The position numbers and the translations under genes are program-made. From Balneicella halophila (lineage in GTDB: Bacteria > Bacteroidota > Bacteroidia > Bacteroidales > Balneicellaceae): a stretch of 64,000 nt of DNA. The notes beneath the pieces are model-generated. The model worked only from the letters and a program-made list of their open reading frames with translations, did no database searches and was not told the DNA's origin. The stretch spans positions 252,669 through 316,668 of the forward strand of contig NZ_QENZ01000005.1 of NCBI RefSeq assembly GCF_003096835.1, in the 5' to 3' direction. This document shows, piece by piece, positions 45,811-55,829 of this stretch. Position 1 is the first letter of the stretch. Every line of letters starts with the position of its first letter.

Positions 45811-46073
45811 TTTGTAAAAATATCCTCGTATATAAATAACCAATATTAGCAATAAATTATGAGATGCTAAATCCCAAATGTATTAGCTAGGATGCTATTC
45901 CATATCATTGTTGATAATCAAATTTCTAATAGATGTAAGTAAAGCTGGGAATAGTTTAATAAAAGCATTAATTTATTCAAACTTATTCTAACAAAAGACT
46001 TTGAATATATTATTCAAAAATAGAGTAAAAACATCCTAACAATCCACGATACTATAAATCATCGCTTAATCAT
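45811..46073. other. AT-rich gene-free region
   Basis: No gene, RNA or terminator could be supported in this stretch before the satD operator. It contains one degenerate copy of the operator half-site (ACGATA at 46046-46051). Confidence 0.5.
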
Positions 46074-46111
46074 ACGATATTTTGAAATATCGTTTATTTA
46101 TACGATATTTG
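46074..46111 (+). promoter_or_regulatory. Palindromic operator over the satD promoter
   Basis: The arms ACGATATTT (46074-46082) and AAATATCGT (46085-46093) form a perfect dyad around TG. A third half-site, ACGATATTT, follows at 46102-46110. The promoter elements TTTG (46081-46084) and GATATTTG (46104-46111) are 19 nt apart and are fully covered by these sites. A bound protein would block transcription. The -7 box ends 4 nt before the satD ATG, so the mRNA may be leaderless. Confidence 0.7.
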
Positions 46112-46115
46112 TAAA

Positions 46116-46760
46116 ATGATAGCAGTTATTACAGGCGACATTATCGCATCACGAAAATTGGTCAACCAAAATAAATGGATGTCTCCTCTCAAAGAATTAC
46201 TTTCTACTTGGGGAGAAAGTCCATTAGATTGGAAACTGGAACGCGGTGATTTTTTTCAAATTGAAGTTGTACAGCCAAAGGAAGTACTTAAAAAGGTGCT
46301 TGAGATTAAAGCACTAATCAAAAAAGTAAAACCTCTTGAAGAACAAAAAACAAGCAGTTCTATAGACGTAAGAATGGCTATTGGAATTGGAGAGAAAACC
46401 TACACAGGAACAAGCATCTCAGAGAATAATGGCTCCGCATATATTCACTCAGGAGAGAAATTTGACAGTCTTAAAAAAGAAGATGTAACTATTGGGATTA
46501 AAAGCCCTTGGCAAGATTTTGACAGAGAAATGAATCTTTACTTAAAACTAGCTGGTCTCTTTATGGATAAATGGACTCTTTCCTCAGCCGAATTGGTTGA
46601 AATTGTACTCAAAAATCCTGATGCGACACAAGAAGTCATTGGAGAGCAACTAAACATAAAACAAAACTCCGTAAGTGGCAGGTGGTACAGAGCCCATATA
46701 GATGAGTTGCTTGCCGTTGAAAAAATGTTCCAGAAAAAAATCTCAAATTTTATTAAATGA
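46116..46760 (+). CDS. satD: SatD family protein with cyclase-like motifs and C-terminal HTH
   Basis: The 214-residue protein begins MIAVITGDIIASRK, the SatD signature. Its motifs have the order and spacing of class III nucleotidyl cyclases: D8 in VITGDI, D45 in LERGDFFQIEV, VRMAIGIGE (85-93, like RIGIHTG) and GSAYIHSGEKFD (106-117, like the GDAVN block). Residues about 155-205 (SSAELVEIVL, TQEVIGEQLNIKQNSVSGRWYRA) look like a helix-turn-helix. The usual transition-state Asn/Arg pair is not evident, so activity may be lost. It could bind the operator upstream. It overlaps the DUF3307 gene by 4 nt (ATGA). Family sure; the cyclase idea is inference. Confidence 0.8.
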   Translation: MIAVITGDIIASRKLVNQNKWMSPLKELLSTWGESPLDWKLERGDFFQIEVVQPKEVLKKVLEIKALIKKVKPLEEQKTSSSIDVRMAIGIGEKTYTGTSISENNGSAYIHSGEKFDSLKKEDVTIGIKSPWQDFDREMNLYLKLAGLFMDKWTLSSAELVEIVLKNPDATQEVIGEQLNIKQNSVSGRWYRAHIDELLAVEKMFQKKISNFIK

Positions 46761-47473
46761 TAATCCTTATAAAACTCATATTAGCCCATTTTATTGGTGA
46801 TTTTCTGCTACAACCTAAATCATGGGTTGATGAAAAGGAGAAGAAAAAGATACGTTCTCCGAAACTTTATCTGCACGCTCTTATTCACGGTGGGTTGCTA
46901 TTATTACTGCTTTGGGATTGGAATTATTGGCTTTTAGCCTTATTGCTTACTTTCATTCACGGACTAATAGACGTATTAAAACTCTACCTACAAAATGAAA
47001 AGAATAAAACGACTTGGTTTCTAATAGACCAAGGCTTGCATATCGTTAGTATTATAGCATTATGGATCGTATTTTTTCATCCTGGCATAACTGCAATGAT
47101 CAGTAGCATTTCGCAAAACTTTTGGATTTACGTGACAGCTTTAATTTTTATCACTACCGTTTCAGGAATAATAATGCAAACACTTTTATATCAATGGTCA
47201 AAAGTTTTAGATGATGCAAATAGTAGATCATTAAAAAATGCTGGGAAATATATCGGAATGCTTGAGCGCTTGTTTGTTTTTCTCTTTGTAGTTTCCGGAA
47301 ATTGGCAAGGGATAGGATTTATGTTAGCGGCCAAATCGATATTCCGTTTTGGAGATTTAAAGCAATCAAAAGATCGAAAATTGACAGAATATATTCTAAT
47401 CGGAACATTACTTAGTTTTGGAATCGCTGTAGTAACAGGCTTATTAGTCCTTTATTTAACGCAGAATATCTAA
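46757..47473 (+). CDS. DUF3307 family membrane protein
   Basis: The 238-residue protein has about six membrane segments. The N-terminus LILAHFIGDFLLQPKSWVDEK is the DUF3307 hallmark, with conserved His and Asp inside the membrane, followed by LYLHALIHGGLLLLLL and LTFIHGLIDVLKLYL. The repeated H...D motifs suggest metal or lipid binding. The ATG at 46757 overlaps the satD stop, so synthesis is coupled to SatD. DUF3307 and SatD are often neighbours in bacteria, from memory, which supports a shared function. No activity is known. Confidence 0.8.
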   Translation: MIILIKLILAHFIGDFLLQPKSWVDEKEKKKIRSPKLYLHALIHGGLLLLLLWDWNYWLLALLLTFIHGLIDVLKLYLQNEKNKTTWFLIDQGLHIVSIIALWIVFFHPGITAMISSISQNFWIYVTALIFITTVSGIIMQTLLYQWSKVLDDANSRSLKNAGKYIGMLERLFVFLFVVSGNWQGIGFMLAAKSIFRFGDLKQSKDRKLTEYILIGTLLSFGIAVVTGLLVLYLTQNI

Positions 47474-55294: not shown

Positions 55295-55344
55295 ATATCA
55301 CACAAAGACATAGGTTACGAATGCAACCTAATCTCTACTATCAT

Positions 55345-55460
55345 TCTTCTTCCATCCGGACTATGACCGTCGGTATAGGATTTTCACCTAATCAGTCTTG
55401 CTTTTTGCAAGAGTCGTGGACTGTTACCACCGGTAGGGAATTACACCCTGCCCTGAAGAA
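55345..55460 (-). promoter_or_regulatory. FMN riboswitch (RFN element)
   Basis: On the minus strand the conserved RFN blocks appear in order: TTCTTCAGGGCAGGGTG, AATTCCCTACCGGTGGT, AGTCCACGA, GGTGAAAATCCTATACC, GACGGTCATAGTCCGGATGG and AAGAAGA. The first and last blocks form the closing stem. It precedes ribD-ribE-ribBA-ribH and should turn the operon off when FMN is abundant. Confidence 0.96.
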
Positions 55461-55474
55461 TTTTTATTTGCTTA

Positions 55475-55719: not shown

Positions 55720-55740
55720 AGAAAGAAACCCTCAATAATT

Positions 55741-55829
55741 AGCCCCGATTGGAGTGGTTATCCTTTTTGTGGGTTAGAAAATCAGTGCGAGAGCGGAAAA
55801 AAGATAGGAACGGAAAGCGGGAATGTGAT
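55741..55829 (+). ncRNA. Flavo-1-like intergenic RNA or repeat element
   Basis: The order AGCCCCGATTGGAGTGG, TTATCCTTTTT, a variable middle, AAAAAAGATAGG, then AACGGAAAGCGGGA recalls the Flavo-1 RNA motif of Flavobacteriia, from memory. TATCCTTTTT can pair with AAAAAAGATA. The element is richer in GC than the flanking DNA. Identity needs a covariance model search; function of such elements is unknown. Confidence 0.6.

Follow-up and report, generated by a model that had tools for sequence, protein, structure and literature searches.

A cyclase-fold protein with a helix-turn-helix domain very probably binds a phased operator array at its own promoter in the satD–DUF3307 locus of Balneicella halophila

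Introduction

What is a cyclase-like protein doing with a DNA-binding domain, and why is it encoded directly ahead of a membrane protein? The question is raised by a two-gene locus, satD–DUF3307, in a 64,000-nucleotide stretch of the Balneicella halophila genome (contig NZ_QENZ01000005.1, positions 252,669 to 316,668 of the forward strand). We call this whole stretch the window, and all coordinates below refer to it. An earlier note on the same DNA had likened the pair to cyclase-effector systems such as Pycsar.

In the literature that we found, SatD is described only as an acid-tolerance annotation and DUF3307 appears only in a gene table. The name SatD stems from acid tolerance in Streptococcus mutans, as cited in a study of S. 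pyogenes (PMC11323703). In that study, satD, present in 178 of 249 genomes, was the one accessory gene to rank in the upper quartile for essentiality. A gene that is accessory and at the same time essential is what would be expected, by analogy, of an antitoxin or of a repressor of a harmful partner. A further paper on cyclase-like proteins of Bacteroidetes (PMC4886424) was rejected as a source on SatD, as it concerns DUF2652.

Results

The satD–DUF3307 locus

The satD gene (46116..46760, + strand) encodes 214 amino acids, comprising a cyclase-fold domain and a C-terminal helix-turn-helix (HTH), and is followed by the gene for a 238-amino-acid integral membrane protein (46757..47473, + strand) recognized by Pfam, alignment and an AlphaFold2 model. 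The two reading frames confirm the stop-start overlap described in the earlier note: the TGA of satD and the ATG of the DUF3307 gene share the letters ATGA, a 4-bp overlap. The motifs quoted there from SatD (TGDI, RGDFFQ, VRMAIGIGE and GSAYIHSGEKFD) are all found in the open reading frame, and the C-terminal HTH claimed there is predicted with high confidence (AlphaFold2 pLDDT 95.8). It is also correct that phage-defence neighbours are missing, in that no defence gene in the window adjoins the pair. The note did not include the operator array upstream of satD, which is the strongest feature of the locus.

The window protein scores 26 bits against the SatD model (PF16264), for which the gathering cut-off is 29. 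The model is matched by 39 of 47 aligned relatives (42-70% identity), and we therefore assign the protein to the SatD family. Its partner belongs to DUF3307 (PF11750) with 108.8 bits against a cut-off of 23 (E 2.4e-31).

An operator array across the satD promoter

Three palindromic units, given here without strand, precede satD. The third (46088..46107) is a perfect TATCGT-N8-ACGATA that ends 8 bp before the ATG; it is the sole perfect match in the genome, with no second one elsewhere. Exactly 28 bp before it lies CATCGC-N8-ACGATA (46060..46079), with two mismatches, and exactly 28 bp before that the degenerate CATCCT-N8-ACGATA (46032..46051), likewise with two mismatches to the perfect form. 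Matches with one mismatch are no commoner in the genome than those to a reversed control pattern, so no second regulon target was found.

Unit 3 is enclosed by a predicted Bacteroidetes-type promoter, TTG-N19-GATATTTG (46082..46111, + strand; consensus TAnnTTTG), and sits within its -33/-7 spacer. Because the ATG follows only 4 nt after the end of this promoter, the satD transcript is probably leaderless. The same layout, a promoter around an operator unit, is seen in 32 of 117 array loci, as against about three in shuffled sequence.

The array recurs at most satD loci. When any period from 22 to 35 bp was allowed, it was found in 122 of 156 homologous loci, at 28 bp in 94 and at 29 bp in 28, whereas only 7 of 78 shuffled upstream regions passed the threshold, none of them at 28 or 29 bp. 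Over three successive half-sites, mean identity is 0.925 for a spacing of 14 bp and stays at 0.61-0.67 for every other spacing between 8 and 24 bp; at 14 bp, 48 loci have a value of at least 0.85. Arrays with a 28- or 29-bp period also precede several of the pairs carried on plasmids, including those of Vibrio, Enterobacter and Halorientalis. About 34 of the 156 loci, among them L180 and a divergent subgroup, have no array detectable at the threshold. The subgroup (L144, L146, L147, L149-L151 and L153-L156) is paired with DUF3307, and its HTH ends in GDSLIRAH or similar.

The recognition helix covaries with the half-site

The predicted HTH domain spans SatD residues 155-213 (46578..46754, + strand), with helices at 155-166, 172-179, 183-192 and 195-213 in the AlphaFold2 model, and profile searches with SatD relatives match HTH families. 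The third of these helices, QNSVSGRWYR (residues 183-192; 46662..46691, + strand), is the predicted recognition helix, and its residues 184, 185 and 188 covary with the operator half-site. The half-site consists of TAT and three variable bases, as in TATCGT, TATTGC, TATTAC, TATTCC, TATCGG, TATCTG and others.

In an unbiased scan of all variable SatD columns, residue 185 ranked first for base 4 (z 15.3) and residue 188 for base 5 (z 8.7); for base 6 the top ranks went to residues 184, 188 and 185. All columns ranked at the top against half-site bases thus fall on the predicted recognition helix. Base 4 is C where position 185 is Ser, Thr, Arg or Val, and T where it is Gly or Ala; base 5 is A or C where position 188 is Arg, Lys or Gln, and mostly G where it is Gly, Glu or Asp. 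These rules were derived from 46 loci and held when checked on newly fetched Bacteroidota loci, giving an overall agreement of 76 of 78 loci for base 4 and 75 of 81 for base 5. Within the 28-bp set, the only two proteins with the change Q183R are also the only two with G in place of A at base 2 (TGTTAC). Members with the 29-bp period follow a different, contextual code, such as QSSVSQ with TATAAG.

In a tree of the SatD N-terminal domain alone, the two base-4 contact traits change 12 and 11 times. None of 5000 characters simulated on the tree reached the observed agreement, for base-4 and base-5 contacts alike. A stricter independent-pairs test gave three contrasts in the same direction and none in the opposite one, a number of well-supported pairs too small for significance.

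Since the half-site bases change in step with residues 185 and 188, it is very probable that SatD acts as a transcription factor and binds the promoter of its own gene. As the operator overlaps that promoter, SatD most likely acts as a repressor; activation, or both, would be possible from the same position. Some arrays are asymmetric: in L018, L022, L023 and L024 the forward half-sites are TATTAC and the reverse ones TATTCC, and adjacent SatD subunits may contact the DNA unequally there.

A cyclase-type palm domain with two metal-type aspartates

Residues 1-150 of SatD (46116..46565, + strand) are predicted by structure comparison (VIA-align) and hhalign to form a palm domain of the class III cyclase/GGDEF/Cas10 type. 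The AlphaFold2 model, built from an alignment of 47 SatD proteins (pLDDT 95.8), has among its best Foldseek matches GGDEF domains, soluble guanylate cyclase, Rv1264, GTP cyclohydrolase III, Csm/Cas10 and the Panoptes mCpol. VIA-align Z scores were 9.5 for GTP cyclohydrolase III, 9.1 for the DosC GGDEF domain, 9.1 for Rv1625c and 9.0 for Cmr2, values of about 9 being modestly above the level common among unrelated models. Compared by hhalign with 15 class III cyclases of Bacteroidota, the SatD profile gave E 5e-5 and a probability of 68%, with D8 pairing with the Asp of 'FADI' and D45 with that of 'GD', the two metal-binding Asp of class III. A sequence search of the PDB returned HTH proteins and nothing else apart from a weak match to the class III cyclase Ma1120 (E 0.6).

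The earlier note had proposed that conservation of D8 and D45 (codons 46137-46139 and 46248-46250, + strand) be checked. Both are invariant in 47 aligned relatives, along with G44, Q48, R86, I89, G90, I91 and G92, and in a broader set D8 is kept in 133 and D45 in 135 of 136 sequences. The class III-like fold and the lack of typical transition-state residues, both put forward in the note, were likewise upheld. At the positions checked within residues 103-114, no Asn/Arg pair like that of class III enzymes was conserved in 136 sequences (position 114 is E in 70, R in 26 and K in 10), these positions having been mapped by motif as the hhalign alignment ended at residue 94. Nor was a GGDEF signature or a match to PF00211 found in SatD, and no PADLOC, Pycsar or Panoptes family matched it convincingly. 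SatD thus has the beta-alpha-beta palm fold and the two metal-binding Asp of class III cyclases and shows no conserved counterpart of their transition-state Asn and Arg. Judging from the modelled fold and the conserved Asp, the domain could plausibly bind a metal-nucleotide.

The DUF3307 membrane protein

The earlier note had described the partner as a six-helix protein with conserved intramembrane His and Asp. The polar residues are indeed invariant (H11, D15, H40, H44, H68, D72, D91 and H95), but the AlphaFold2 model (pLDDT 91.8) has about ten helices, several of them short, which makes the count of six a rough one. A C-terminal motif, ER..AAKS..RFGDL..LTEY, is conserved as well. Comparison with PDB structures gave Z scores of at most 7.6, which are uninformative for a helical bundle, and no recognizable fold match; the PADLOC 2TM effector model was matched with an E value of only 0.026. 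Invariant His and Asp at predicted intramembrane positions suggest chemistry, transport or a channel. We conjecture, from genomic and Tn-seq context, that DUF3307 is harmful when unrestrained.

Judged by structure (BFVD A0A1L7N193 and others), there are phage proteins of about 120-130 amino acids that consist of the DUF3307 N-domain alone, and phage DUF3307 proteins also appear in PMC8504454; such a domain might interfere with the host pair. No relatives of SatD or DUF3307 were confirmed in IMG/VR, and tblastn of phage records gave no match for DUF3307 or for a Fusobacterium SatD. In locus L109 the DUF3307 gene has an in-frame TAA (TKR*WFF) beside an intact satD. Apparent internal stops in DUF3307 of several genomes of family f122 were rejected as overruns past the C-terminus.

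Pairing, spread and neighbourhood

The pairing is near-obligate. All 48 SatD relatives found at 40-70% identity in a scan of contigs have DUF3307 adjacent, and 38 of the 48 keep the 4-bp overlap. Among 395 Bacteroidota genomes, SatD occurs in 94 and DUF3307 in 108, with both in 91 (p 1.7e-67), that is, in 91 of the 94 genomes with SatD. Occurrence is patchy, with SatD in 16 of 149 sampled relatives of the B. halophila genome.

The pair is also found on plasmids: in each of the nine annotated records tested, the reading frame directly before DUF3307 has a profile match to the SatD family (E 2e-27 to 2e-50). These come from Segatella, Vibrio, Salinivibrio, Sphingomonas, Pseudomonas, Enterobacter, Klebsiella, E. 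coli and the haloarchaeon Halorientalis, and a second haloarchaeon, Haloplanus, is annotated with the pair. On the 3770-bp E. coli plasmid pEC34A and on a 4424-bp Klebsiella plasmid, satD and the DUF3307 gene are the sole evident cargo. (The enterobacterial pairs on plasmids of 3.8-4.4 kb lie at 1792-3481 of L178 and 362-1937 of L187.) Among 5,426 complete E. coli genomes, none has a near match to the pair of pEC34A.

Most neighbours of close SatD relatives are ordinary genes, and no conserved third gene was seen beside the pair beyond lineage synteny. The pair lies between hsdS and hsdR in two type I restriction-modification lineages (L018/L020 and L021/L036), which are unrelated to one another, their HsdR proteins being about 22% identical, and in Sphingomonas it adjoins a Pycsar system. 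These neighbours lend circumstantial support to a role in defence.

In Aerococcus tenax (L188, 1597-5209) the gene after that of a SatD relative encodes a DUF975 membrane protein, a barnase/barstar-like pair lies upstream, and the membrane partner of SatD may differ in Bacillota. Elsewhere in the window, Rfam matches an FMN riboswitch (55340-55464), a Flavo-1 RNA (55737-55828) and, truncated where the window begins, a cobalamin riboswitch (1-110).

Discussion

The best joint explanation, and one that we consider probable, is that a nucleotide-sensing SatD represses its own operon and restrains a DUF3307 effector, the two forming a conflict- or addiction-like module. Computation gives good support to the fold, to the array and its assignment to the SatD HTH, to the near-obligate pairing and to the wide spread. 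Repression rather than activation, oligomerization, a nucleotide ligand and harm by unrestrained DUF3307 are what we infer beyond these.

We suggest that SatD is a one-component transcription regulator whose palm domain oligomerizes and probably senses a nucleotide, as the fold and the invariant residues imply, and whose C-terminal HTH would read the half-site TATNNN. Its subunits would line up on alternating half-sites every 14 bp, in palindromic units of 28 bp, across the satD promoter. With 14 bp amounting to 1.33 helical turns, each subunit would stand about 120 degrees further round than the one before it, and the subunits could wrap the DNA. Such an assembly would repress the satD–DUF3307 operon. 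A change in the nucleotide signal, or loss of SatD, would then release the operon and let DUF3307, the putative membrane effector or output held in check by SatD, accumulate or become active. The two genes would travel together as a small mobile module, and it is the patchy occurrence, the tiny plasmids, the restriction-modification operons, the Pycsar adjacency and the essentiality in S. pyogenes that lead us to read this module as conflict-like. Tentatively, we also raise the bolder idea, possible rather than probable, of a mobile conflict module that is pan-prokaryotic and whose SatD, either catalytic or nucleotide-sensing, polymerizes on the 14-bp-phased array and couples nucleotide state to the release of DUF3307 as a new class of membrane effector.

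We think it rather unlikely that SatD is instead a housekeeping, nucleotide-responsive regulator of a DUF3307 enzyme or transporter in envelope or acid stress, with no part in conflict. The name taken from acid tolerance in S. mutans, as cited in PMC11323703, would fit this role, as would the ordinary genes around most loci and the invariant intramembrane His and Asp, which suggest chemistry or transport. However, a housekeeping function sits poorly with presence in only 16 of 149 relatives and 94 of 395 Bacteroidota genomes, with pairs on tiny plasmids and inside restriction operons, and with a satD that is essential but accessory in S. pyogenes (PMC11323703).

Still less likely, in our judgement, is that SatD is an active cyclase or oligonucleotide synthetase gating DUF3307 in the manner of Pycsar, CBASS or Panoptes, its HTH merely tuning expression. 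The parts of the earlier Pycsar-like plan that stand are the palm fold, here of the cyclase/Cas10/mCpol type, the two invariant metal-type Asp and the near-obligate membrane partner. The neighbouring Pycsar and type I systems could be read in the same direction, and Panoptes OptS-OptE is a known operon of a palm enzyme and a membrane effector (PMC12657218). Against this, SatD has neither the conserved Asn/Arg transition-state pair nor a GGDEF signature, no PADLOC, Pycsar or Panoptes family fits it convincingly, and DUF3307 has no recognized nucleotide-binding domain, so a signal enzyme feeding an effector is unsupported. The array and the covarying recognition helix mark SatD as, at the least, a DNA-binding regulator of its own operon. 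As for the palindromes being hairpins of an attenuator in the 5' leader RNA rather than DNA operators, the arms do stay complementary while their sequence varies among loci, but this is highly improbable given a -7 box downstream of or overlapping the array, which leaves the array mostly untranscribed, half-sites that track the HTH recognition residues and are equally spaced on both sides, as hairpins would not need, and no Rfam match at the palindromes.

Returning to SatD as a nucleotide-sensing repressor, we can place the module among known systems. By profile, the window protein is of the same family as the SatD of the S. mutans sat genes (PF16264); the cyclase fold, an HTH that reads a phased array and a DUF3307 partner are not described for SatD in the papers we found. 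SatD resembles class III cyclases (PF00211) and GGDEF proteins in fold, motif order and the two metal-type Asp, and differs from them in lacking a conserved transition-state Asn/Arg and the GGDEF signature and in having an HTH fused directly. It does not form the pair of a PycC cyclase with a PycTM or PycTIR effector that defines Pycsar. Panoptes likewise pairs a palm-fold protein with a membrane protein in an operon of two genes; however, its OptE is an S-2TM-beta protein and its OptS a minimal Cas10 polymerase (PMC12657218), whereas here Pfam assigns the partner to DUF3307, SatD has an HTH and an operator array in addition, and the combination of mCpol with S-2TM-beta is not found.

The toxin-antitoxin operons AbiE and Rv2827c are alike in that their first gene codes for a regulator that binds DNA and controls its own operon, and in that several inverted repeats lie over the promoter (PMC7319586). 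The repeats of the AbiE type are 23 bp long with other spacings, whereas the SatD half-sites are 6 bp and alternate every 14 bp; the regulator here has a cyclase fold, the partner is a DUF3307 membrane protein and its toxicity is conjectural. The satD locus shares with such modules an overlapping operon that has the regulator first and a putative autoregulatory operator, binding to which is indicated by covariation.

A SatD–DUF3307 module would offer a direct explanation for the accessory yet essential status of satD in S. pyogenes, and it adds a cyclase-fold candidate to the hunt for nucleotide-based conflict systems. The recognition code of SatD, from residue to base, can be read from genomes, and the alternation of half-sites about every 14 bp, preserved all the way from Bacteroidota to haloarchaea, leads us to expect a specific assembly in which the protein binds DNA cooperatively. 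The module spans bacteria and some archaea, and it joins SatD and DUF3307, families that are both widespread and both of unknown function, into a single unit that can be tested, with its operator defined and a fold proposed.
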